The notes under the pieces are model-generated. The model had not been told where the DNA came from, searched no databases, and saw only the letters and a list, made by a program, of their open reading frames with translations. DNA of 34,834 bases from Caldifarciminota bacterium (GTDB lineage: Bacteria > SDB-A): the NCBI GenBank assembly GCA_016929715.1, contig JAFGIG010000005.1, forward strand, positions 1-34,834, in the 5' to 3' direction. The position numbers and the translations under genes are program-made. Positions 13,467-27,712 of the stretch are shown here, one piece after another (the first letter of the stretch is position 1; every line of letters begins with the position of its first letter).

Positions 13467-13496
13467 TTGCCAAAAAGCTATATTGGTTTATATTTA
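13467..13496 (+). promoter_or_regulatory. Candidate promoter of the M16 peptidase gene
   Basis: TTGCCA (13467-13472), 18-nt spacer, TATTTA (13491-13496), ending 24 nt before the start codon. Confidence 0.4.
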
Positions 13497-13520
13497 ATAA
13501 AAAGTAAAATAGGAGAGAAT

Positions 13521-16052
13521 ATGCATATTTTAGCTATTTGCCTTATTTCAATTTTTCAGGCTACCCTTGACAACGGTTTGAGAGTAGTTCTCGAAGAAGA
13601 CCATTCCTCTGCCATTACTACCGCGAGAATATTCATTGATGTCGGTTCCGTTTACGAAACCGAGAACACAGGAAGGGGACTTTCTCATTTCTGCGAACAC
13701 GTCGTCAGCGGAGGAACGACCCCTTTCAGGACCGAAAAACAATACGAAGAACTGGAAAAGCGTTTCGGCGCCAGAACCAACGCCTACACATCTTGGGAAG
13801 TCACCTGCTACCACACCACAGTTCCTTCCGACTATTCCGATTCGGCAATCATGATGCTGATGGAGCAGGTTTTTTCCTGTTCACTCGACTCTTTTGAAAT
13901 AAGCAGAGAACACGGAGTAATACACCACGAAATACTGACTTCCGACACCCCCGACGAAAGAGTCTGGGACGCTGCATTTGTTTTCTTTTTCGGCAATCAT
14001 CCCCTCTCGGTTCCGATTCTCGGACTCGAAGATGCGATGCTGTCAATCACGAGAGAAGACATTTATAAATTCTACTGCGCCCGTTATTCGCCTTCAAACG
14101 CAGTTCTCGTAGCTGTCGGAGATTTTCAGACCTCTGAACTTTTCGAGTTCATAGAAAAACAAGCCCAAAAATTCCACTCCAGACCATACCTCCCATCGAC
14201 AGTTCCGTCTCCCCCTCAGTATTCCCATCCCCGCACCGACACTGTTTTCGAAGACATACCCCATCCCCTCGTTTACATGATGTGGAACGGCGCCCAGAAG
14301 ACCGCTGATGACTACGATGCTCTTTCTCTTCTTTCTCAATACCTGACAGGCGGTCAGTCATCATACCTTGAAAAACTGCTCGTCGAGGAGAAGGAACTAT
14401 CTTTCGAGACATGGACATACAATATGGGGCTGAGGAGAATGCCCGGCGCTTTTGTCGTATTCAACGCTTCCCCTGACATGGAAAAACTTCACAATGCCGT
14501 CGGAGTTATACAAAGAGAAATTGACAGGATCGCCGCCGGAGACATTGACGAGGCGAGGCTTTCACGCACCAAGAACCTCATCAGATACAGTCTTCTCAAA
14601 GAATGGACGGCAGGGACAAAAGCACAGCTTATCGGCGACGGAATGCTCACTTCAAACGATCCTTTGTATTTTCAAAACAGCATAGAAAAATATTCGAGAA
14701 TAACTTCAGCAGATCTGTCTGAAATCTCTCAAAGACTTCTCTCTTCATCCAAAAGACAGACTTTTTTCGCCCTGCCCTCCGCATTAAAAGAAGAACTGAT
14801 CCCCAACGAAAGATATTCCGGACAAATACCTTTCACTCTTCACGAAAGGGAGGGCTCTCCTGCCCTTCTCTCTCAGAGGACGCCGGGATCTCAATATGTA
14901 AGTATGCTCGTGACTTTCGGAGGCGGCTCCCGTGTTGACCCCGTCGGCGCAGAAGGCACGTGCAGAGTAATCTCCGAAATTCTCGGCTTGAAAACAACTT
15001 ACATGAACTCCGACAGGTTCAGTGAAAAGCTCGATGAACTAGGCATTTCAAGACGTTCCTCATGCTCTGACGATTATTTCTACATATATTTCGACTTCCC
15101 TCTTGAAAATTTCGACAGTGCCGTGGAATTGATTGGAAAAGCAATCAGCGCCCCAGACTTTTCAGACCAAGGGACAAGGGACGCAAAAAAATCGCTTTCT
15201 TTTGAAATCGCCCAGAGTTCTACGAATCCCAACTATCTGCACGGAAAATTTTTCAGGAATAATTTTTTTCCGCAGAATACATACAATAGATATCCCGATG
15301 AAAATTCTATGGCGGAGATTTCAAGGGAAAATCTTGAAAAGCTTTACAGAGAGATTAAGTCGTCGGGAAATGTCGTTGTCGCAATAACCGGCGACGTCGA
15401 TCCGGAAAAGGCGCAAAAAGCTCTGTCTGCAAATTTCCCTGCTCTGAATGCCGGCTCTTCGCTGGCTTCCGGAAGACCTGTTGAAAACATCTATCCCCGG
15501 AGCGACAGCCTGATATATGAATTCCAGCAAACTCTTGTGACTTACGCTTTCAAAACAGTTCCCTGGGGACATCCTGACGGACCCGCCCTTCTCATCTTGG
15601 ACGAACTCCTGTCAGGGGCAAACTCGAGAATTCACGACGCCCTGAGAGGAAGGCAGGACCTTGTTTACTGGGGCTGGGGCTATCAGGCGAGCTACGGCGA
15701 TGCGGGAGCCTTTATCTTCATCTCGCAGACAAGCCAAAAAAACCAAGACAAGGTCAAAGAGGCTTACCTCGCTGAAATAGAGAGGGTGAAAACAGAGCTT
15801 CTTTCTCAAGAAGAGCTCGACAATCTCAGGAACGCAATTTTCTCAAGCTGGGATATGTCAGAGCAGGACCAGCTCAGAAGGCTTTTTAGATACTCTTTCC
15901 TATACCTCATGGGTCAACCCCCGGATTACTACTCGTCCAACCTCAGCCCTTCATTGGAATCACTAACTCCTGAAGACATCCTCGACGCCGCCGTCTTGTA
16001 TTTCGACAAGGGTTACTGGTTTATCTCCCGTCCGGATAACAGCGATTATTGA
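13521..16052 (+). CDS. Secreted M16 (insulinase/pitrilysin-like) zinc peptidase
   Basis: 843 aa from ATG 13521, which has AGGAG 5 nt upstream; the in-frame ATG at 13467 lacks such a site. The first ~14 residues (MHILAICLISIFQA) look like a short signal peptide, followed by the family's usual TLDNGLRVVL opening. Two M16 halves are fused. The N-terminal half carries the inverted zinc motif HFCEH (H56, E59, H60) and Glu137, 77 residues after H60, the expected third zinc ligand, so it should be active. The C-terminal half (from ~residue 455) has no HxxEH, as in two-lobed M16B proteins where it shapes the chamber. Likely a periplasmic or exported peptidase that degrades short peptides. A good promoter separates it from the next genes. 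Confidence 0.93.
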   Translation: MHILAICLISIFQATLDNGLRVVLEEDHSSAITTARIFIDVGSVYETENTGRGLSHFCEHVVSGGTTPFRTEKQYEELEKRFGARTNAYTSWEVTCYHTTVPSDYSDSAIMMLMEQVFSCSLDSFEISREHGVIHHEILTSDTPDERVWDAAFVFFFGNHPLSVPILGLEDAMLSITREDIYKFYCARYSPSNAVLVAVGDFQTSELFEFIEKQAQKFHSRPYLPSTVPSPPQYSHPRTDTVFEDIPHPLVYMMWNGAQKTADDYDALSLLSQYLTGGQSSYLEKLLVEEKELSFETWTYNMGLRRMPGAFVVFNASPDMEKLHNAVGVIQREIDRIAAGDIDEARLSRTKNLIRYSLLKEWTAGTKAQLIGDGMLTSNDPLYFQNSIEKYSRITSADLSEISQRLLSSSKRQTFFALPSALKEELIPNERYSGQIPFTLHEREGSPALLSQRTPGSQYVSMLVTFGGGSRVDPVGAEGTCRVISEILGLKTTYMNSDRFSEKLDELGISRRSSCSDDYFYIYFDFPLENFDSAVELIGKAISAPDFSDQGTRDAKKSLSFEIAQSSTNPNYLHGKFFRNNFFPQNTYNRYPDENSMAEISRENLEKLYREIKSSGNVVVAITGDVDPEKAQKALSANFPALNAGSSLASGRPVENIYPRSDSLIYEFQQTLVTYAFKTVPWGHPDGPALLILDELLSGANSRIHDALRGRQDLVYWGWGYQASYGDAGAFIFISQTSQKNQDKVKEAYLAEIERVKTELLSQEELDNLRNAIFSSWDMSEQDQLRRLFRYSFLYLMGQPPDYYSSNLSPSLESLTPEDILDAAVLYFDKGYWFISRPDNSDY

Positions 16053-16063
16053 GGTCAAACTCC

Positions 16064-16093
16064 TTGACAAATATTGATCCTGCGAAGGATAAT
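16064..16093 (+). promoter_or_regulatory. Promoter of the sAC-like cyclase operon
   Basis: TTGACA (16064-16069, perfect -35), 18-nt spacer, GATAAT (16088-16093, one mismatch). It lies just after the M16 stop codon and 27 bases before the ATG of the small secreted protein. It is the best sigma-70-like promoter in the window and probably drives the four genes to 24661. Confidence 0.6.
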
Positions 16094-16120: not shown

Positions 16121-16498
16121 ATGAAAAGAGCCATATTAGCTTTTATTTTTGTCTCTCTTCTTCCGGTTGCTGTTTTCGGATCAGGATGGTCACTTCGACT
16201 CTTCCATTTCCCTGAAGAAATTATAGTCACTTCAGACACAGCACTCACTCTCGCTATGGGCACAATAGTCAATGTATCTGCTACTGAAACAGAGAACAAA
16301 GGCATAACCGTCGAGATATGGTGGGGAGAAGTAGTAGACAATTTCGAGTTCTATACTGTTTTCGAATATGAAGGTGAATACTATCAGACCAGTCCCTATC
16401 AGGTAAATTCTTCTCTTCCGAACAAAAAGATCTATGACATAATGACACCTGACGCGGTTTACCTCCCCCCCTGCATAGACCGCGAAGAAGACGACTGA
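16121..16498 (+). CDS. Small secreted protein of unknown function at the head of the cyclase operon
   Basis: 125 aa. Start ATG has AAAGGAGG 5 nt upstream. Signal peptide MKRAILAFIFVSLLPVAVFG, then a mature part of about 105 residues rich in beta-forming and acidic residues (VTVEIWWGEVVDN-like central stretch; ITVEIWWGE, FEYEGEYYQTSPYQ), a single Cys near the end and an acidic tail DREEDD. I do not recognise the family. It is 23 bp upstream of the first sAC-like gene and under the same probable promoter, so it may be a periplasmic partner or target of that module; this is inferred from position only. A run of seven C lies near its 3' end (about 16465-16471). Confidence 0.8.
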   Translation: MKRAILAFIFVSLLPVAVFGSGWSLRLFHFPEEIIVTSDTALTLAMGTIVNVSATETENKGITVEIWWGEVVDNFEFYTVFEYEGEYYQTSPYQVNSSLPNKKIYDIMTPDAVYLPPCIDREEDD

Positions 16499-16521
16499 TT
16501 TTTTTTCTGCGCGTTTTTTAG

Positions 16522-19500
16522 ATGGGAAATCTCGCCCCTTTTTTCATAAAGGACAAATTTGTCCGCGGTGAAAAAAGAGGCGAGACTGAAGCTTACGTCC
16601 TTCTCATAGACCTCTCGGGATTTTCTGACCTGACAGACTCCCTTCTGAAAAGCGGCGAAGATTCCTGCGAGACTCTGAATGATCTCATAGCTTCAATTTT
16701 TAAGCCGTCGGTTGACATAATTCACAGCCACGGCGGTTTCGTATTCTCTTTCTCAGGCGACGGATTCGCCGCCGCGTTTCTCAAAAGGGAGACCAGAGCT
16801 GAAACAGTTTTCAGGGTGGCTTCACTCTTGAATGTCAACGTCGCCCCTAACAGCCTTTTCAAACTGCCCTTCAGAGCGGGCATTTCTCTGGGAAAGCTTT
16901 CATGGGAAATCGCAGAGACCTCTTGCCAGAAAGTTTTTTACTTCGACGGAGAATCTATAGACAGAGCGGCATATTTCAAGGACAAAGCCGAAAGCGGAGA
17001 AATCGCCCTCGACATCGCTTTTTTAGAAAACCCTGACATAAAAAAAGACCTCTTGGTTCAAAACGGTTCAAAAATTCTTCTTGAATCTAATAAAGCCCTG
17101 AACTGCGACTCCAATCCGCCTCTGACTATTTACGAGAAGTCCGTATCCGATGAAGGTTGGACAAGTCCGGCTGTCTTCAGGTCTTCTCCTGAAGGCGAAC
17201 TCAGATACATAGTTTCTTGCTATATATCCCTCAAAAAACACGGGGACTTCGGCAAACATGTCGGCAGAATAGTCTCTCAAGCCGAATACCACGGCGGTTA
17301 TTTCAACAAAGCGGAATACGGCGACAAAGGGCTTTCTTTTCTTGTTTTTTTCGGAGCTCCTTATGAGACGGAATCTCCTCTTGACAAAGCGGCTGATTTC
17401 CTTCTCTCACTGTTTCAGAGAGAACGCCTCGAACTTCGCGCGGGTATTTCCTACGGCAAAGCCTTCTGCGGTTTTATAGGATCGGACAAAAGGTCCGAAT
17501 ACACCGCTCTCGGCAGAGCCGTCAATATGTCTTCAAAACTCGCCGAAAATGCTTCCTGGGGAGACATAGTAGCCGACGAAACCGTCTTCAACAGGATAAA
17601 AAACAATTTCAACATGCTCAGAATGTCAGAAAACCCGCCGGGAAGGGGCGTTTCTGAGCGGTATGTCCTCGTATCAAAAAAAGTTGCCGACGACTCTTTC
17701 AGCAGGAAAAAAACCGAAATGACAGGCAGAAAAGAAGAGCTCAAAAATCTTCTCGAAATAGCCAAAAGACACAGGGAAGGAGATTTTTGGGGGACTGTCT
17801 GCGTGTCCGGAGAAGCAGGCATCGGCAAGTCAAAACTCCTCGAAAAATTCAAAGACAGCCTCTTCATAGACAGATTCAATGTCTTCAGACTGCCTTGCGG
17901 CGAACCTCAGGGCAAACCTTTTGGGCCTTTTATCCTGTTTCTGAGAGAGTATTTTAACCTCTCGGATTCTGAAAGCGAATCTCTCGGTCTTGTCCGTTTT
18001 CAGGACAAAATTTTCGACTTGAAAGAAAAGCTCGCCGTTATTTTCGGCAGAGAGAGCGCGTTTCTGAGAAACCTCGAATACAAATCTAAATGGATAGGCA
18101 ATCTCGCCGGAATAAAACGTTTCTCGGATGACCTGTCTTTTTACGAACCAAAAGAGAAATACGACAACACAGTGTCGGCTCTAATTGATTTTTTATCCGC
18201 TGAAGCCTTCGTCAAGCCTGTTATAGCGGAAGTTACTGATGCTTTGAAAATTGACGATGATTCCCGTTTCGTGCTTGAGAGCATTTTTAATAGATCAAAA
18301 AAATTCCCGTTCATGCTTCTCCTCGAAACCCGTTCAATAGAACCTTTCACAGACTTGCTTTTCGGAGACAGCGGCGAGGTTCACAACATAAAACTCTCTC
18401 CGCTCGACGAATTTCTGAGCCGGGAATGTTTTTTTTCCTTCTGCAGAGCGCTGAACATAGAAAACAGAATGAGTAAATTCAGAAGGTCATACCTCGACTC
18501 TATGATAGCAAAAACAGCCGGAAATCCTCTTTTTATTGAAAACATGGCGCTCTTTTTATCTTACAAATCGTCAGAACTACCCTATCAGACGGAAGCTGAC
18601 GACAAGCTCGACCAGTCTGTCCCCTCGGAAATAGAGCACATAATTCTGGCGAGATTCGACACGCTCGACACAGAGACCAAAGACGCTCTGAGGATAGCTT
18701 CAGTCCTCGGACAAATTTTTTCAAAAGAGATGTTTTCTGACATACTCAAAGAACATTTTCCGGAAATTGATCCCATGAATTCCCTTTTGAGCTGTCAGAA
18801 AAACAATTTCATAGAACTTTCAGGCAATTCTTGCCATTTTTCAAATCCTCTCATAAGAGAGGTGATCTACGGGATTCAGCCCAAAAGTTTTTTGCAGAAA
18901 ACACACTATTCAGCCGCCAGATGCCTGGAAAGAGACCACATTGACGACCATTCTTATTTAGAGGAAATAACCGCGCATTTCTGTAAATCGGGCTACAGGG
19001 AAAAATCTCTTGAATACCTCATAAAAACATCTGAATACCTTCACGGCGAATTTCACGAAAACAGGGCGTTAGCACTGCTCGAAGAAGCCGAAAAAAATTA
19101 CGGCAGAAAAGACCCCGTCACCTTGAATAAGATTTTTTATTTGAAAGGGTCTGCGCTCAAAAATCTCGGGAAATGGGAAATATCCTCCCATGTATTCAGA
19201 AAAGCCCTCTCAAACGCATATAATAACAGAATGGTGAGGGAATACGCTGAAAATCTCGAATCCCTTTCTTCTCTTTTCAGGAGGACAGGAAAGAGCGGCA
19301 AATCAAAGAATTATGCGAAAAGAGCACTCACGCTCGCCGCAAAGGCGGGAGACGAAAAGTTGATCTTCATGTCCAACAACGATTTAGGACTTCTTCACTA
19401 CAGAAAAGGAGAATACGACAAAGCTCTTTTTCATTTTGAAAAATGCGAAAAAATCTTAAACGGAACGCAGGACAAAAAGGAAATACCGAACGTCCTCCAC

Positions 19501-20376
19501 AATATATCGCTGATTCACGCTGAAAAAGGTGAACTCGACACAGCCCTCGAAAAAGCTCTTGAAGCTCTCGATAAATGCTCACAGGCAGGAAATCTCAGGT
19601 CTGAATCACGTATACTTTTGAATCTCGGCGGAATATATCACGCTATGTTCAATTTCCAAGAAGCTGAAAAGTATTACGAAAGAAGCCTTGACCTGAAAAA
19701 GAAAATCGGAGACACGCCGGGTGAGGTCATGGTCAAATGCAACCTCGGCGTCATAAAAAAAGACCTCGGCAGACTCGATGAGGCTCAGAGGATATTCGAA
19801 GAATGCATGGATATCAACACCCAAATCGGCAACAACAGAAATTTTGCCGTAAATCTGATCAACATAGCCGACATTAAAAAAATTTCTGAAAAATACGAAG
19901 ATTCAATAAGCTGTTATGAAAAATCCTACGAAATATTAAAGGCATCAAATTTAAACTTCTACCTCTGTTACGGCTTAGTTCAGAAAACAGACGCCCTCTA
20001 TGAGCTCGGCAGATATGAGGAAGCTGAAAGATATCTCAGCGAGGCGATGGATATTTCCGATAACATTCAAAATCCGGCATTTATTTCATCATGTAATATC
20101 CTTAGGATTAAGATAGATATTAAAAACAATCTTTCAGTTGATACAAACCTCGCAAAACTGAAAGAGATAGCCCAGTCCGATGAAAATAACTTTATCAGAG
20201 CTTATATTTATTACGACCTTTACAGGCTTACCGGAAAGAAAGAATTCGCCGAAAAAGCCTATGAACTCTTCGTGGACCTCCATGCATCTGTCCCGAAATA
20301 TGAATATAAAATCTTTCTCGAAAAACTGAGGCAAATAGCCCAAAGGTTCGCGTCCGGAGACGGGATCATTAAGTAG
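16522..20376 (+). CDS. sAC-like protein 1: tandem class III cyclase domains, P-loop NTPase, TPR array
   Basis: 1284 aa. Order of domains matches animal soluble adenylyl cyclase (ADCY10). C1 (~20-190) has LLIDLSGFS with metal Asp30 and SFSGDGFAAAF with metal Asp80. C2 (~220-375) has GDKG with substrate Lys269, EYTALG with Thr328 and VNMSSK with Asn335. The transition-state Arg (human R416) is Lys339, so activity may be low or lost. Next comes an NTPase module: Walker A GEAGIGKS (430-437), with a weak Walker B region (VIAEVTDALKIDDDS). From about residue 830 to the end there are roughly ten TPRs (for example NNDLGLLHYRKGEYDKALFH). No signal peptide or TM segment, so cytoplasmic. No clear Shine-Dalgarno precedes the ATG; the start is supported by alignment with its paralogue (MGNLAPFFIK against MENLVPLFIK). 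It overlaps that paralogue by one base. Confidence 0.92.
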   Translation: MGNLAPFFIKDKFVRGEKRGETEAYVLLIDLSGFSDLTDSLLKSGEDSCETLNDLIASIFKPSVDIIHSHGGFVFSFSGDGFAAAFLKRETRAETVFRVASLLNVNVAPNSLFKLPFRAGISLGKLSWEIAETSCQKVFYFDGESIDRAAYFKDKAESGEIALDIAFLENPDIKKDLLVQNGSKILLESNKALNCDSNPPLTIYEKSVSDEGWTSPAVFRSSPEGELRYIVSCYISLKKHGDFGKHVGRIVSQAEYHGGYFNKAEYGDKGLSFLVFFGAPYETESPLDKAADFLLSLFQRERLELRAGISYGKAFCGFIGSDKRSEYTALGRAVNMSSKLAENASWGDIVADETVFNRIKNNFNMLRMSENPPGRGVSERYVLVSKKVADDSFSRKKTEMTGRKEELKNLLEIAKRHREGDFWGTVCVSGEAGIGKSKLLEKFKDSLFIDRFNVFRLPCGEPQGKPFGPFILFLREYFNLSDSESESLGLVRFQDKIFDLKEKLAVIFGRESAFLRNLEYKSKWIGNLAGIKRFSDDLSFYEPKEKYDNTVSALIDFLSAEAFVKPVIAEVTDALKIDDDSRFVLESIFNRSKKFPFMLLLETRSIEPFTDLLFGDSGEVHNIKLSPLDEFLSRECFFSFCRALNIENRMSKFRRSYLDSMIAKTAGNPLFIENMALFLSYKSSELPYQTEADDKLDQSVPSEIEHIILARFDTLDTETKDALRIASVLGQIFSKEMFSDILKEHFPEIDPMNSLLSCQKNNFIELSGNSCHFSNPLIREVIYGIQPKSFLQKTHYSAARCLERDHIDDHSYLEEITAHFCKSGYREKSLEYLIKTSEYLHGEFHENRALALLEEAEKNYGRKDPVTLNKIFYLKGSALKNLGKWEISSHVFRKALSNAYNNRMVREYAENLESLSSLFRRTGKSGKSKNYAKRALTLAAKAGDEKLIFMSNNDLGLLHYRKGEYDKALFHFEKCEKILNGTQDKKEIPNVLHNISLIHAEKGELDTALEKALEALDKCSQAGNLRSESRILLNLGGIYHAMFNFQEAEKYYERSLDLKKKIGDTPGEVMVKCNLGVIKKDLGRLDEAQRIFEECMDINTQIGNNRNFAVNLINIADIKKISEKYEDSISCYEKSYEILKASNLNFYLCYGLVQKTDALYELGRYEEAERYLSEAMDISDNIQNPAFISSCNILRIKIDIKNNLSVDTNLAKLKEIAQSDENNFIRAYIYYDLYRLTGKKEFAEKAYELFVDLHASVPKYEYKIFLEKLRQIAQRFASGDGIIK

Positions 20377-23300
20377 TGGAAAATCTTGTCCCTCTTTTTA
20401 TCAAAAAAAACCACTCCATGGGCATGTATCAAGGAAACCTCGAATGTTTTGTTCTGATAGCCGATATTATTAATTTTTCGGGGGCAACGGAAAATTTTCT
20501 AAAAAAAGGCAAGAAAGGATGTGAAAAACTCCGGCATATCCTCTCTTCGGTTTTCAGCCCGGCTATAGATACAGTTTACGAAAACGGGGGCTTCATATCA
20601 TCATTCGCGGGAGACGGTTTCAATGCCTTTTTCGAAACGCATAACACCGAACCGGATTCTCTTGAGGAAATCTGTCAAAAAATAGCACAGATAGAAATTT
20701 CCGAGGGAGATGCTGTCTTCAGATACAAAACAGGATTGTCCAAAGGAATTGTGACATGGAATATAATAGAGACCCAACATCAGAAATTTTTCCTCTTCGA
20801 AGGAGAGGCAATAGAGAGAGCGGCATATTTCAAATCGAAATCGTCGGCAGGTAAAACATCCGTTGATTTCAGAATCAACCCGAAATGCTTTGACAAAAAC
20901 CCGGATTTTTCATCCCTTATAAAACAATGCTCCAACCCGCCGAAAAAAACACATCATATCGGCGAAATCCCTAGCTCGCAGGATGATGAATGGATACACC
21001 CTTCACTGAGGAATAAAAGAGATATAGGCGAATTCAGAGACATAGTCTCCTGCTTTATACTCTTTGAAAAAAGTCCGGATTCGCTCGAAATGCTTAGAAA
21101 GACTGCCGATTTATCATACGATTACGGCGGTTATCTGGATAAAATAGATTTCGGAGACAAAGGAGGGATGGCTCTTGTCGTATTCGGCGCACCTGTAGAA
21201 ACAGAAAACAAGTTCGTCAGAGCCGCCGACTTCGCCCTCGCCTTGAGAAAGATAAAGCATTCCGATGTGAAAACAGGCATTTCTTTCGGCAAGGCTTATT
21301 GCGGTTTCGTCGGAAACGAAAAGAGAGCTGAATACACAGTCCTCGGCTCCACTGTCAATATTTCATCGAGGATTGCTGAAAAATCGGCATGGCGTGAAAT
21401 TGCCGTGGATGAACCTTTCAAATCCAAAATCGCGAATTCCCACAAACTTTATCCGCTCGGAGAGGAAACTCTTAAAAACTTCAGAGATAAAGTTAAATTC
21501 TTCGTCCTGAGTTCCAAAAAATCCAAAGAAAAATCCGAAGACTTTCCGGTTGTTCCGTTAATCGGCAGAAAAGAGGAAATGGATTCTGTTTTGAGGTCAT
21601 ACGAAAATTCATGCACAGAGAAAAAACTTTGCGCTGTAATTGTGACGGGTGAAACTGGAACAGGTAAAAGCCGTTTAATAGAAGAATTCAACAAAAGACC
21701 GGTCCTCAGCGGGGAAAAAACTATAAGGCTCGAATGCGACGATCCGGTAAAAAAACCTTTCGGTCCCTATCTTTTTTATCTTAAAAACAGATTTGGCATG
21801 GAAGATTCAGACAGCCGCCACCTCAACAGGGTCCGATTCGAGGATTTTCTCGACAACCGCGCGAAAGAGCTATTGGGGCAGGGAAAAGACAAACTGGCAT
21901 CAGAAATAAAAAAATCAGCCCAATATATTTCTTTCCTGCTCGGTTTCGGTCCGGATGATGAAACTTTTTTGGGGCTCGACTCGAAAGGCAAATATGATCT
22001 CTGTTTCAATGCGCTGAAAAAATTCTTTATATCCGAGTGTCTCGAAAATAATGTCGTCATTGAAATTTTCAAGGCTGACCAGATGGACGGCGATTCTCTT
22101 CTTCTTACAGATTCCATATTGAAAAACTTGAAGAAAAATCCTGTTCTTTTAATAATTGAGACAAAAGACGAGAAATTTAATCTTTGTATTCCGGAGTTAA
22201 ATTCAGTTCCGATGGAAGTTATCAGAATCGGAAAACTCTCCCCTGACGAATGCAAACAACTCTTAAACGGATGGGCTGAATCTTTCGGCAAAAAATCCTC
22301 GGATATTTTTGATTGTGACTTTTATGACTTATGCGAGGGAAACCCTTTTTACGTTGAGAATATTGCAAGATTTTTATCTAGAGAAAGCAGGGACAATGAA
22401 TCGTTTAACTTAAAAAAATTTCTGTCGGAACCTCTCGACATAAAAGAACTCATTCTCTCGAGATTTGACGGATTCGAGAGCGGGCTCAAAGAAGCGGTCA
22501 GGGTGGCATCTGTTCTCGGAACTTCGTTCACATACGAAATGTTTGTATCGGTTTTCAGCGAGCTCTATCCGGAATTCGACGCCTCTGAGTATCTCAATTT
22601 CGGAGTCGGTTTAAATGTCTTATCCAGAAACTCAAAAGATTTCTTTTTTTCAAGCGCTATGACACGCGAAGTGATTTACGGCGTTCAGATGAATCCTTTT
22701 CTCGGAAAAATCCACCGCTTAGCCGCCGAGTTTCTTGAAGGATATAACCCTGAAGACAGATTCCGTTTTGAAGCGATGGGAGATCATTACCTGTCATCTG
22801 ACGATAAAGAGAAAGCCGTTTATTGTTACATAGAAGCCGCAAGCTCCTTTTTTGATGTCTATCTCAACCAAAGAGCCCTTATCTGTCTCGATAAAGCTGA
22901 AAATCTTGTCTCCAAAGGACACGAAAAAGAGCTGTTTGATATATATTACCTCAGATCAAGTATATTCAGGTTGACGGGAAAATGGGAAAACGCCAAAAAA
23001 AGCCTGAAAACCTGCTTGGATATCTCTCTCTCAGAAAAGTTCGGGGAAAAATTCTGCCTTTCTCTCGAGATGCTCTCCTCGATCGAGAGAAACAGGGGAA
23101 ACCTCACCAAAGCCTTAAAACACGCCGGGAGGGGCGCGAAAATCGCATCAAACATAAAAGATGAAAAACTGCAGGCTCTCTTTCAAACCGCCCTTGGGCA
23201 TATATATTACAGATCCGGCGATTACGAAAAAGCTCTAGAGTATTATTCCTCAGCTCTCGTTTTTCTGAAAAAAACAAAAGACATCAGGGCTGAGTCTAAA

Positions 23301-24188
23301 ATACTCTCGAACATGGCAAACATTTATTCCGAACTCGGAGACAGTAAAAAATCACTCGAGCTCAATCTCAAAGGACTTGAATTGTGCAGAAAGACAAAAG
23401 ACCTTGGGACCGAATCTATAATTCTTCTTAATCTCGGGACATGTATGCATTCCACGGGAAATTTCCCTGAAGCTCTTGAAAATTATACAAAAAGCCTTGA
23501 AATAAAGGAAAAGATAATGGATGCCGACGGCATCGCCATTTTGAAAAACAATATCGGCTATCTTCACGAATTAGAAGGATCGTTTGAAACCGCTCTGAAA
23601 TACTACGAAGAAAGCGCTGAACTCAGCTCTCAAATCGGGGATAAAAGAAGCCTCTCCATCTCGCTCGGAAACAAAGCTAATGTTCTTTACACCCTCGGTG
23701 ATTACGCTAAAGCTGAATATCTTTACAAAAAGAGCGTCGTTTTATCAACAGAGTCGGGTTCAAAATACAATCTCAGCTTTTTCCTCTTCCGTCTCGCGGA
23801 GCTTTTCTGTGAGCTGGAAGCATTCCAAAAATCGGAAAACCTTCTCGATGAAGCCCTGAAAACCGCGGCAGAAGTTGGAAGATTCTCTGTTGTCTGCGAG
23901 TGTGAAATATTAAAAAGTATTCTCGACTACAAGACAGGCAGAGACCCTGAAAAAGCTGTCTCCATCCTTATTTCGATAATCGAAAAATCACAAGATGATG
24001 ATATCAGATCTTTCGCAGCCTATAACCTTTTCAAGCTGACAAAAGGTATTAAGCACGCAGAAACAGCTCTTGCAGAATTCAAAAAATGTTGTGAAAAGTC
24101 CCCTATTTACGATAATATAAAAAGAAAAGAAGAACTCGAGAAATTCATCGCAAAATCAGGCACCCATGATAAAAAGGAGAACGAATGA
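20376..24188 (+). CDS. sAC-like protein 2: tandem class III cyclase domains, P-loop NTPase, TPR array
   Basis: 1270 aa, a diverged paralogue of the preceding gene along its whole length. The start is GTG, sharing its G with the previous TAG stop (TAGTG), which implies translational coupling. C1: LIADIINFS with metal Asp30, SFAGDGFNAFF with metal Asp80, and FLFEGEAIERAA, which aligns with the C1 motif GQAVDDVRLA of sAC. C2: FGDKGG with substrate Lys262, EYTVLG with Thr321, and VNISSR with Asn328 and Arg332, so every catalytic position I can name is present. NTPase: Walker A GETGTGKS (425-432); Walker B region IEIFKADQMDGDS is degenerate. TPR array from ~residue 800 to the end (for example LGHIYYRSGDYEKALEYY, NIGYLHELEGSFETALKYY). 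Expected to make cAMP in the cytoplasm under control of a signal read by the C-terminal half. Substrate choice (ATP over GTP) is inferred from Lys/Thr. Confidence 0.93.
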   Translation: MENLVPLFIKKNHSMGMYQGNLECFVLIADIINFSGATENFLKKGKKGCEKLRHILSSVFSPAIDTVYENGGFISSFAGDGFNAFFETHNTEPDSLEEICQKIAQIEISEGDAVFRYKTGLSKGIVTWNIIETQHQKFFLFEGEAIERAAYFKSKSSAGKTSVDFRINPKCFDKNPDFSSLIKQCSNPPKKTHHIGEIPSSQDDEWIHPSLRNKRDIGEFRDIVSCFILFEKSPDSLEMLRKTADLSYDYGGYLDKIDFGDKGGMALVVFGAPVETENKFVRAADFALALRKIKHSDVKTGISFGKAYCGFVGNEKRAEYTVLGSTVNISSRIAEKSAWREIAVDEPFKSKIANSHKLYPLGEETLKNFRDKVKFFVLSSKKSKEKSEDFPVVPLIGRKEEMDSVLRSYENSCTEKKLCAVIVTGETGTGKSRLIEEFNKRPVLSGEKTIRLECDDPVKKPFGPYLFYLKNRFGMEDSDSRHLNRVRFEDFLDNRAKELLGQGKDKLASEIKKSAQYISFLLGFGPDDETFLGLDSKGKYDLCFNALKKFFISECLENNVVIEIFKADQMDGDSLLLTDSILKNLKKNPVLLIIETKDEKFNLCIPELNSVPMEVIRIGKLSPDECKQLLNGWAESFGKKSSDIFDCDFYDLCEGNPFYVENIARFLSRESRDNESFNLKKFLSEPLDIKELILSRFDGFESGLKEAVRVASVLGTSFTYEMFVSVFSELYPEFDASEYLNFGVGLNVLSRNSKDFFFSSAMTREVIYGVQMNPFLGKIHRLAAEFLEGYNPEDRFRFEAMGDHYLSSDDKEKAVYCYIEAASSFFDVYLNQRALICLDKAENLVSKGHEKELFDIYYLRSSIFRLTGKWENAKKSLKTCLDISLSEKFGEKFCLSLEMLSSIERNRGNLTKALKHAGRGAKIASNIKDEKLQALFQTALGHIYYRSGDYEKALEYYSSALVFLKKTKDIRAESKILSNMANIYSELGDSKKSLELNLKGLELCRKTKDLGTESIILLNLGTCMHSTGNFPEALENYTKSLEIKEKIMDADGIAILKNNIGYLHELEGSFETALKYYEESAELSSQIGDKRSLSISLGNKANVLYTLGDYAKAEYLYKKSVVLSTESGSKYNLSFFLFRLAELFCELEAFQKSENLLDEALKTAAEVGRFSVVCECEILKSILDYKTGRDPEKAVSILISIIEKSQDDDIRSFAAYNLFKLTKGIKHAETALAEFKKCCEKSPIYDNIKRKEELEKFIAKSGTHDKKENE

Positions 24189-24661
24189 AAATTGAAAAAG
24201 AAATAATTGAAGGCTTTCACAAAAAGACCGCCTCTGAACTTTTCAACTACGTCTGGGAACTGCTCGATAAAAAAGACAGGACAATTGAAGACGACAGAAT
24301 GATGATTCATGCCGCGCACGCTTCGCTTTTTCACTGGATGCAGGTCGGAGACGCCGAGAACGACTATCTCGGAGAGTGGCAGGTATCGAGAGTCTACAGC
24401 ACATTAGGAAAAGGAGAAAGCGCTCTGTATCACGCCCAAAATGCTCTCCTGATCTGCGAAAAAAACGGATTTACGGGCTTCAATCTCGCCTATGCCCATG
24501 AAGCTTTAGCAAGAGCCCAATTGGTTCTTAAAAATCATGAGAACGCGAAAAAAAGCCTCGAAAAAGCTTTTAGAGAGGCTGAAAAAGTAGAAAACGAAGA
24601 GGAGAAAAATCTTCTGGAAAGCGACTTAAAATCACTGTCGGACGACTTCTCCCAGGCATGA
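24185..24661 (+). CDS. Small TPR-like protein, last gene of the cyclase operon
   Basis: 158 aa; the ATG overlaps the stop of the second sAC-like gene (ATGA), with AAAAGGAG 8-9 nt before it. All-helical; central stretch has two to three TPR-like helix pairs (WQVSRVYSTLGKGESALYHA, LAYAHEALARAQLVLKNHEN). From memory it resembles a widespread but uncharacterised single-domain TPR family with the pattern GEW-x2-SRVY-x-LG-x4-ALYHA. No signal peptide or TM. Tight coupling suggests it acts with the cyclases, perhaps binding their TPR domains. Its last 30 bp overlap the convergent NUDIX gene. Confidence 0.85.
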   Translation: MKIEKEIIEGFHKKTASELFNYVWELLDKKDRTIEDDRMMIHAAHASLFHWMQVGDAENDYLGEWQVSRVYSTLGKGESALYHAQNALLICEKNGFTGFNLAYAHEALARAQLVLKNHENAKKSLEKAFREAEKVENEEEKNLLESDLKSLSDDFSQA

Positions 24662-25057
24662 TAGGATTAAGTCTTGGGGGCTGAACCTTAAATCTTTTAA
24701 CGCTTCTCTTCCAAACCATTCAGGACTTCTTTTTTGCGCGTTTTCATTTTCGAATACATATCCGTTGGGGTTCAAATTTTTATCTTCCAGGCATTCGGAA
24801 AGAAAAAACAACTCCAGCGAAAACATTTTTGTTTTCTCATCAAAAAGTTCGTTGAGGCCGACTAATTTTATAACCCGGACAAGTTGTCCTGATTCCTCGA
24901 AAGCCTCTCTCTTCGCGCATTCAAAAACCGAAAAATCGTTTTCCTGAAGTTTTCCTCCGGGCGGTATCCAGAGGTTTTCACTGCTCTTAAGACTCCTGAC
25001 GAGAAGGACTGTTTCGCCGCGGAGTATTATCGCGGCGCATCTTATGCATACTTTCAA
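24632..25057 (-). CDS. NUDIX hydrolase
   Basis: 141 aa. Nudix motif at residues ~34-58: GGKLQENDFSVF then REAFEESG, with the metal-binding core R50-E51-x2-E54-E55-x-G57 intact. The first half of the box is one residue longer than the standard GX5EX7REUXEEXGU and has Asp41 at the usual Glu. Hydrolyses some nucleoside diphosphate-X (for example an oxidised nucleotide); substrate not predictable. Start is TTG at 25057, with CGGAG 5 nt upstream, two bases after the stop of the secreted OB-fold-like gene, so the two are probably cotranscribed. It ends with a 30-bp convergent overlap with the small TPR gene. Confidence 0.88.
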   Translation of the reverse strand: MKVCIRCAAIILRGETVLLVRSLKSSENLWIPPGGKLQENDFSVFECAKREAFEESGQLVRVIKLVGLNELFDEKTKMFSLELFFLSECLEDKNLNPNGYVFENENAQKRSPEWFGREALKDLRFSPQDLILSCLGEVVRQ

Positions 25058-25622: not shown

Positions 25623-26132
25623 ATGGACGAGATTTTAACACAGAAATTCAAAGACGAAAAGCGAAGGCTTCTCTCTTTTATAACTATGAAAGTAGGAGAC
25701 GCTGATGAAGCCGAAGATATCCTTCAGGAAGTATTCGAATCGGCAATCCTGAATTTCAACACAATAAGATCCCTCGAAACCGTCACTTCCTGGCTGTTCT
25801 CCGTTGCGAAAAACAAAATTGCAGACTACTTTCGGGCTAAGAAAAGAGTAAATCTTGACATTGCCGAACTCGAAGACATTTTGCAGGATATGGATGCGAA
25901 GCCCATGGATGAAGTAAAAATAGCGGTTTTTACAGAAAAAGTCTCTCAAATAATATCCTCGATGCCCGAAAAACCAAAACAAGTGTTTATTATGCATGAA
26001 CTCGACTTATTGACTTTCAGGGAAATTTCAGAAATTACAGGGACGCCGATAAGCACCCTGCTATCGAGAAAAAAAGAAGCCATGGCATATCTTAAAAAGA
26101 AACTCAAAAATAAAAGGGAGGAATTGCTATGA
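25623..26132 (+). CDS. ECF-type RNA polymerase sigma factor
   Basis: 169 aa, the usual size. Region 2: DADEAEDILQEVFE (core binding) and TSWLFSVAKNKIADYFR (-10 recognition). Region 4: MPEKPKQVFIMHELDLLTFREISEITGTPISTLLSRKKEAM (helix-turn-helix for the -35), shown here by its ends MPEKPKQVF and STLLSRKKEAM. Directs transcription of an extracytoplasmic-stress or envelope regulon. Start ATG has AAAGGAG 6 nt before it. It overlaps by ATGA the following small membrane protein, the position where an anti-sigma factor often sits. A TATAAT at 25603-25608 lies very close to the start codon without a good -35, so the promoter is unclear; self-activation is possible. Confidence 0.92.
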   Translation: MDEILTQKFKDEKRRLLSFITMKVGDADEAEDILQEVFESAILNFNTIRSLETVTSWLFSVAKNKIADYFRAKKRVNLDIAELEDILQDMDAKPMDEVKIAVFTEKVSQIISSMPEKPKQVFIMHELDLLTFREISEITGTPISTLLSRKKEAMAYLKKKLKNKREELL

Positions 26133-26473: not shown

Positions 26474-27712
26474 TCAAAAAGCTGTCGGATCGAGCAATCT
26501 GCCCATGAACAGCAAAAGACCGGTCTCTCTGTCCCGAATAGCATAGAGGAACGGGCGGTCAGCGTTGAATACTTTTCGTGAATGCTGAGCTGCAGATGTC
26601 CTCTCCATCACTACCGCTGTCGCAGCGGCGGCTTCAGTGCCTTCTTCATCAACGGCAATAAACGCCTGATGTATTACATAGCTTATGTAAAGGTCCTTGT
26701 CTCCGGTCATACCTGAAAAATCCGCCGCTCCGGCAATAAACGCCTCCGGCATTCCCATAATTTTGAGGACTTCGTTAAGGGTGAATTTGGATTCTATTTT
26801 GAACCTGGGAAAATATATTACTACCTCTGAATTAGTCAAGGAGCTCAGATACAAATCCGTTCTGTCAAAATCCAAAGCTCTCTCAAAATCTTCAAATTTA
26901 GTTTTAGGTAAAAATGCCACCATTGAAAGATTTCCGCCTCTATAGGGCATTTCAAGGACCTGCACTTCTTCGTCCTCATAGTAACCGAATCTGGCTTCGG
27001 AATTATCAAGAAACATCATGTCTGTTTCCACAGTTTTGTCTTCCGACAAATAAAAAGGCGCTTTCGCTGTTTTCTCGGCGTCAAAAGTGTATTGCCATGT
27101 CCCTTTGAAATATATCGCGTTTGTCAGGACAAGCGTAGTCAAGGGATTTATCTGACCGGGTGACAAAAGATCTTTAATTTTTCCTTCAGTTTTTTCTTCG
27201 ACCCAGAAATTTATCTTGTTTCTCGAGCCTTCGGGATCGTTTACAAAATCGAGATTGACAGCTCTGCCGTAATAATATTTTTCGACATCCGCTATATAAT
27301 CTCCGAGGAAAGGATAACCGTTTTGGGTCCATAAGGCGTTCGCGGTCGAAAGAGATAGGTCGAGACGGGTAGAATTGATTTTATCGAGAAGAGATAAGTA
27401 TCCGTATCTCGTCAAGGAAATATCAAATCCAAGGTCCAAGACATTACGCATTTGTTCGGCGGTCGAACCCCTAGCTCCTTCATAAGTCATAGTCAGCGCA
27501 TCGTGGACGCTGAAAGGAGACATGATTATATTTCCGCTTGTTTCTTTTGAGGCAGTCAGATAAAAATCGAATGAAAAGTCGTTTACACTCTTTACGACAG
27601 CGCCTCCGTAAAAAGGCAGAGAAATGGAAAACAGATCCGAGCCGGCTGACACAGACGGCAATACCAAAAATAATAAAAACACAGGACCGCAATTTATAAA
27701 TCCTCTTAGCAT
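26474..27712 (-). CDS. Secreted serpin (serine/cysteine protease inhibitor)
   Basis: 412 aa. Signal peptide MLRGFINCGPVFLLFLVLPSVSAG; start ATG has AAAGGAGG 5 nt upstream. Full-length serpin fold: SPFSVHDALTMTYEGARGST (strand/helix hD region near the start), TLVLTNAIYFKGTW (s3A, the family's most conserved stretch), and C-terminal ADRPFLYAIRD with a LLFMGRLLDP ending. The hinge of the reactive loop is EEGTEAAAATA, with small residues at P12-P9 and Thr at P8, so it should insert and inhibit. Counting from P15 Gly places P1 at Thr with Arg at P2 (MERT-SAAQ); P1 Arg is possible if the loop is one residue shorter. Acts in periplasm or outside the cell. Divergent from a secreted metalloprotease gene, 125 bp away. 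Confidence 0.95.
   Translation of the reverse strand: MLRGFINCGPVFLLFLVLPSVSAGSDLFSISLPFYGGAVVKSVNDFSFDFYLTASKETSGNIIMSPFSVHDALTMTYEGARGSTAEQMRNVLDLGFDISLTRYGYLSLLDKINSTRLDLSLSTANALWTQNGYPFLGDYIADVEKYYYGRAVNLDFVNDPEGSRNKINFWVEEKTEGKIKDLLSPGQINPLTTLVLTNAIYFKGTWQYTFDAEKTAKAPFYLSEDKTVETDMMFLDNSEARFGYYEDEEVQVLEMPYRGGNLSMVAFLPKTKFEDFERALDFDRTDLYLSSLTNSEVVIYFPRFKIESKFTLNEVLKIMGMPEAFIAGAADFSGMTGDKDLYISYVIHQAFIAVDEEGTEAAAATAVVMERTSAAQHSRKVFNADRPFLYAIRDRETGLLLFMGRLLDPTAF

Follow-up and report, generated by a model that had tools for sequence, protein, structure and literature searches.

A lineage-specific tandem pair of sAC-like proteins with unequal catalytic residues within an expanded bacterial cyclase family

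Do two soluble adenylyl cyclase (sAC)-like proteins encoded back to back in a bacterial operon form a single signalling device, or are they the unequal products of a gene duplication? The question is raised by a contig of a Caldifarciminota bacterium (C20, JAFGIG010000005.1), the whole of which, 34,834 nucleotides, is the window analysed here. It belongs to a 1.98-Mb draft genome (GCA_016929715.1, hereafter G000) that is 94.7% complete, and we compared it with two congeners (G001 and G002) and a genome of a sister genus (G003). The first-pass annotation of the window described an operon of four genes, here called A, P1, P2 and T (Table 1), in which two paralogues of about 1280 residues, each with the order C1 cyclase, C2 cyclase, NTPase and TPR, are preceded by a signal-peptide protein and followed by a small TPR protein, and proposed that the operon encodes a two-subunit cAMP switch with dedicated small partners. 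The gene layout was described correctly: the ORF positions agree, with a gap of 23 bp between A and P1, a 1-bp overlap of P1 and P2 (TAGTG) and a 4-bp overlap of P2 and T (ATGA), and A begins with a Sec-type signal sequence. P1 and P2 had been called fused head to tail and are in fact separate, overlapping genes. The one good promoter that had been reported is the sequence TTGACA-N18-GATAAT ahead of A, which recurs with the same hexamers and spacing and at the same place upstream of A in G002. Directly upstream of A lies a gene for an M16 (insulinase-type) peptidase, absent from the earlier description, which is part of the conserved neighbourhood: M16 is the conserved upstream neighbour of a sAC-like gene in 3/3 relatives having this neighbourhood. 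Downstream of the four genes, in conserved synteny, the window encodes a bacterial serpin (26474-27712; PF00079, E 2.5e-115), and near it lie genes for an ECF-type sigma factor (25623-26132) and a NUDIX protein (24632-25057).

Table 1. Features of the four-gene locus and its upstream flank (positions in the window).
Feature	Position	Strand	Remarks
M16 (insulinase-type) peptidase gene	13467..16052	+	Pfam PF00675/PF05193
Promoter-like TTGACA-N18-GATAAT	16064..16093	+	11/12 match; best in 14 kb
A	16121..16498	+	125 aa; Sec-type signal sequence; predicted all-beta; no family
P1, sAC-like protein	16522..20376	+	1284 aa
P1 C1 cyclase domain	16522..17016	+	Metal Asp30, Asp80 present
P1 C2 cyclase domain	17188..17685	+	Lys263, Thr328, Asn335 present
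P1 codon 339	17536..17538	+	Lys at human sAC Arg416 site (alpha-phosphate)
P1 Walker A	17809..17832	+	GEAGIGKS
P1 degenerate Walker B	18220..18246	+	VIAEVTDAL
P1 TPR region	19102..20304	+	
P2, sAC-like protein	20376..24188	+	1270 aa; GTG start; overlaps P1 by 1 bp
P2 C1 cyclase domain	20376..20870	+	Asp30, Asp80
P2 C2 cyclase domain	21021..21530	+	Lys256, Thr321, Asn328, Arg332 all present
P2 Walker A	21648..21671	+	GETGTGKS
P2 lost Walker B	22053..22079	+	VVIEIFKAD; family consensus hhhEhEDgH
P2 TPR region	22926..24113	+	
T	24185..24661	+	158-aa TPR-like protein; widespread stand-alone family

The domain order claimed for both large proteins is borne out by Pfam, by alignments with human sAC and by a structural model of P2. 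The two proteins are indeed paralogues that align from end to end at 32% identity (593 bits). In Pfam they match Guanylate_cyc in the second cyclase domain only, AAA_16 above the cut-off and many TPRs; the first cyclase domain has diverged beyond the reach of Pfam and can be aligned with C1 of human sAC in P1 and P2 alike. An AlphaFold model of residues 2-401 of P2 (called 1-400 in the analysis), computed from an alignment of 64 family members, contains both cyclase domains at a mean pLDDT of 90. When this C1-C2 model was compared with the PDB, every one of the best 24 matches was human sAC (E 4e-25 to 5e-22), and membrane cyclases came next (E about 1e-15). As modelled, the C1-C2 region of P2 is a complete intramolecular sAC-type pair in one chain, and for P1 the same pairing is supported by alignment. 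No membrane segment is predicted in P1 or P2.

The difference between the copies lies in the active site, for which we take the roles of the sAC residues from published work (PMC12867704, PMC12250328). Both proteins have the two metal-binding aspartates of C1 (human sAC Asp47 and Asp99) and the adenine-recognition residues of C2 (Lys334 and Thr405; numbering of P1 and P2 in Table 1). None of the six catalytic residues examined (D, D, K, T, N, R) is lost from P2 or its orthologs, and the counterparts of Asn412 and Arg416 are present in all three P2 orthologs. In P1 the Asn412 site is kept and the Arg416 site is Lys339, with Lys also in the G002 ortholog. Across 150 family members this site holds Arg in 144, Lys in 3, Met in 2 and Phe in 1, the three Lys carriers being P1, its G002 ortholog and a fragment from G003. 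Because P1 has lost the catalytic Arg, P1 and P2 are not equivalent. The Lys may partly replace the Arg, and P1 may hence be an active cyclase; our search of the open-access literature for R416K kinetics found no paper with this mutant. Bicarbonate sensing as in sAC is rejected for both proteins, in which the bicarbonate-binding Lys95 and Arg176 of the human enzyme are missing, with Ser and Ala in their place.

The NTPase regions have changed as well. Their Walker B acidic pair, which is ED or DD in 135/150 homologs, is TD in P1, TS in its G002 ortholog and FK, FQ or FN in the P2 proteins; the acids are partly lost in P1 and absent in the P1 ortholog and all P2 proteins. Among the 145 other homologs, 143 keep at least one acid, and the two that do not are truncated. 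With Walker B changed in P1 and P2 alike, a switch driven by ATP hydrolysis probably has no central role here. Between species, identity in P1 is 73% in C1 and 62-65% in the other folded domains (the linker lies outside this range), while in P2 it runs from 36-47% in the NTPase, the fastest-changing folded domain, to 60-68% in C2, the best conserved one. P1 is more constrained than P2 in most domains, and such strong constraint makes it clear that P1 has a function in those species that have retained it.

The genome comparison places the origin of the pair. The order in G000 is M16-A-P1-P2-T. The four-gene order, whose absence from every relative had been named as part of a refutation, is retained in one of the two congeners: in G002, A-P1 lies on one contig and P2-T on another, the two overlapping at the P1/P2 junction, with the C-terminus of M16 preceding A. 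G001 has only M16-P2-T at the same place, without A-P1 and with 15 bp between M16 and P2, and in G003 a single sAC-like gene lies between two M16 genes. In a tree of 80 homologs (quick search, LG+G4, SH-aLRT support and no bootstrap), P1 from the window and G002 and P2 from the window, G002 and G001 form sister clades (SH-aLRT 100), and the next branch (SH-aLRT 100) is the lone sAC-like gene that G003 has next to M16. Because the tree and the genomic context agree, we conclude that P1 and P2 arose by tandem duplication in the ancestor of the genus and that A-P1 was later lost in G001. P1 is dispensable, as this sister species lacks it. The 1-bp overlap of P1 and P2 is replaced in G002 by a gap of about 60-66 bp. 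The 4-bp overlap of P2 and T is kept in all three species (the window genome, G001 and G002), which makes it very likely that P2 and T are translationally coupled.

The description of A and T as dedicated small partners finds no good support for either protein. A is found in G000 and G002 only, that is, only where P1 occurs; its model has a pLDDT of 70 and gave no PDB match with E below 0.001. A is unlikely to be a subunit of a P1-P2 complex, as it is secreted and the large proteins have no membrane segment. The T family is present in 21 of 241 sampled genomes, the four of this phylum included. Where its position in outside genomes could be determined, its neighbours are unrelated and no cyclase adjoins it, and in G003 a member lies 7 kb from the cyclase. 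The linkage of T to P2 is limited to the genus. Since its relatives stand alone, we reject T as a dedicated subunit as a general claim, and its relevance to P2 is uncertain.

The pair is part of a much larger set of genes. In G000, 21 ORFs match a class III cyclase, and 17 of these encode cyclase-NTPase-TPR proteins of more than 1000 aa, P1 and P2 among them; about 14 of the 17 have the two-cyclase layout, judged from alignment ranges. The statement that single proteins of this layout are known in bacteria is correct, in that the layout occurs in many phyla, and understated, given the 17 in this one genome. G001, G002 and G003 are similarly rich in such genes. The 21 cyclase ORFs would be about 1% of genes if G000 has about 1800, a gene number that is itself estimated. 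The top class III cyclase counts in a 2005 census were 37 in Bradyrhizobium (0.4% of proteins) and 28 in Sinorhizobium (0.5%) (PMC1183210). In our sample of 241 genomes G000 is the highest among the genomes compared in first-look cyclase candidates per Mb, with its congeners and an unrelated genome of 6.1 Mb next in rank, though this is a loose measure. A literature search on bacterial cyclase-NTPase-TPR proteins found no directly relevant study.

Several other members of the family deserve mention. The same genome has a second tandem pair on contig C13 (L051:4036-11744), of 1331 and 1238 aa with a 4-bp overlap. Its first gene, with orthologs in all three relatives, has Ser, Ser and Thr at the Lys334, Thr405 and Asn412 sites; its second gene has intact catalytic residues and is found in this species only, G002 having another insert at the site. 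At L054:3352-10096 and L078:5814-12585 a cNMP-binding protein of 367-393 aa is encoded divergently from a sAC-like gene, with a convergent 582-aa TPR protein behind; this arrangement is conserved between species, with parts of it in L084, L116 and L073, and is more promising than the window as a candidate for a cyclase paired with a receptor of its own. In a three-species orthologous group (L062:3086-6799, L115:7304-11029 and L076:3-3029) the first metal Asp is replaced by N or H and the Arg by M or F, and by these residues its members are likely to be true pseudo-cyclases. Saprospiraceae loci of the Bacteroidota (L144, L146, L151 and others) have Glu and Ala at the base-recognition Lys and Thr sites, and such substitutions may confer a different nucleotide specificity. 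A sequence labelled 'Desulfuromonas sp. SDB' (L142, LKUE01000025.1; Thermodesulfobacteriota in NCBI) falls in the same family as the window in the set of genomes analysed, and the name looks misleading.

Our results suggest, with a probability that we put at about 0.62, that P2-T is a conserved cAMP unit and that P1 is a diverged, probably impaired or modulatory copy left by the tandem duplication. On this reading of the sequences, an ancestral single sAC-like adenylyl cyclase gene, of the kind located downstream of M16 in this bacterial family, would have been duplicated in tandem to give P1 and P2. P2, translated together with T, would be the conserved working unit, its N-terminal C1-C2 region making cAMP from ATP in a sAC-type site, as human sAC does. 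Its NTPase-like and TPR regions would be the sensing part, with the TPR superhelix probably binding a protein or peptide signal, and the cAMP may be read by CRP-type proteins encoded elsewhere, presumably some of the cNMP-binding proteins, of which there are five per genome, the one at L054 among them in G000. P1, with the secreted A and its own promoter, would be the copy that diverged and whose alpha-phosphate Arg site is damaged; its activity is probably weak or absent, and it would most likely modulate P2 or act on its own input.

The two-subunit switch of the first-pass annotation is unproven, as G001 manages with P2-T alone and the copies are not equivalent. It could nevertheless be argued that P1-P2 is an obligate heteromeric cyclase, with P1 as a ligand-sensing pseudo-enzyme controlling P2. 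The overlapping genes under one conserved promoter, the strong constraint on P1 and the asymmetry between an upstream copy without the catalytic Arg and an intact downstream copy are all consistent with this, as is the same asymmetry in the C13 pair, where the first gene has lost the base-recognition residues and the Asn and the second is intact. Yet P2-T occurs without P1 in G001, the second C13 gene is confined to one species, the 1-bp overlap is not kept in G002, and the C1-C2 region of P2 is already a complete pair, so that no partner is needed. A P1-P2 complex is possible; an obligate heteromer we consider rather unlikely. Somewhat less likely still is a scheme in which P1, as a pseudo-cyclase, would join P2 through the NTPase-TPR arms and gate cAMP, A or M16 would supply an envelope signal, and the C13 pair would be a second case, of independent origin, in which the upstream copy is damaged and the downstream one intact.

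If P1 and P2 were instead two independent active cyclases with different inputs, merely co-transcribed after the duplication, this would accord with birth-and-death evolution of the 17 such genes in G000, with the divergence of the TPR regions of P1 and P2 to 29% identity and with the possibility that Lys supports some activity; we think it quite improbable, because almost all family members have Arg416 and the two P1 orthologs share the Lys. It is also conceivable that neither protein any longer signals by cAMP and that both are scaffold or NTP-binding proteins with decaying domains, as might be read from the altered Walker B of all P1 and P2 proteins and the rapid change of the P2 NTPase. 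The six catalytic positions intact in all three P2 orthologs, and C2 as the best conserved domain of P2, make this very improbable.

With P2-T as the favoured working unit and P1 as its diverged copy, the pair is a lineage-specific sAC-like duplicate whose two copies differ in catalytic residues, and it belongs to a family that has expanded remarkably; the layout itself was already known. The pair is less striking than the density of sAC-like genes across the genome as a whole. Little is known of what the NTPase and TPR parts of sAC-type cyclases sense, and the genus can serve as a natural experiment, in which a single ancestral gene became a pair that two species keep and from which a third has lost the extra copy, with catalytic and NTPase lesions of P1 and P2 that can be placed on the tree. 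The presence of 17 cyclase-NTPase-TPR genes in a 2-Mb genome against five cNMP-binding proteins also raises the question of how the cAMP sources stay separate.

Among known systems, the TOMM kinase/cyclase fusion TIGR03903 resembles P1 and P2 in a stretch of cyclase, NTPase and TPR that aligns at 90 and 77 bits. These scores compare with a cut-off of 706, P1 and P2 have no kinase domain in Pfam, and no TOMM genes were seen in the window; we therefore reject this assignment. The bacterial sAC-like cyclase-STAND NTPase-TPR proteins of Saprospiraceae, Cloacimonadota, WOR-3, Chloroflexota and others have the same length and layout, share the N-terminal motif N-L-x-P-x-F-I and are 23-29% identical to P1 and P2, but with few exceptions have kept Walker B and Arg416. 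No same-strand family neighbour was found for any of the 52 family genes outside these genomes that have at least 2.5 kb of flank on both sides. Human sAC (ADCY10) differs in its bicarbonate site, in having Arg416 where P1 has Lys and in the absence of a tandem gene pair, and its identity is about 19% in a fold alignment. The likeness to it nevertheless covers the one-chain C1-C2 arrangement, the metal Asp residues in C1 and the base and phosphate residues in C2, and in sAC, as in P1 and P2, NTPase-like and TPR-like regions follow C1-C2.
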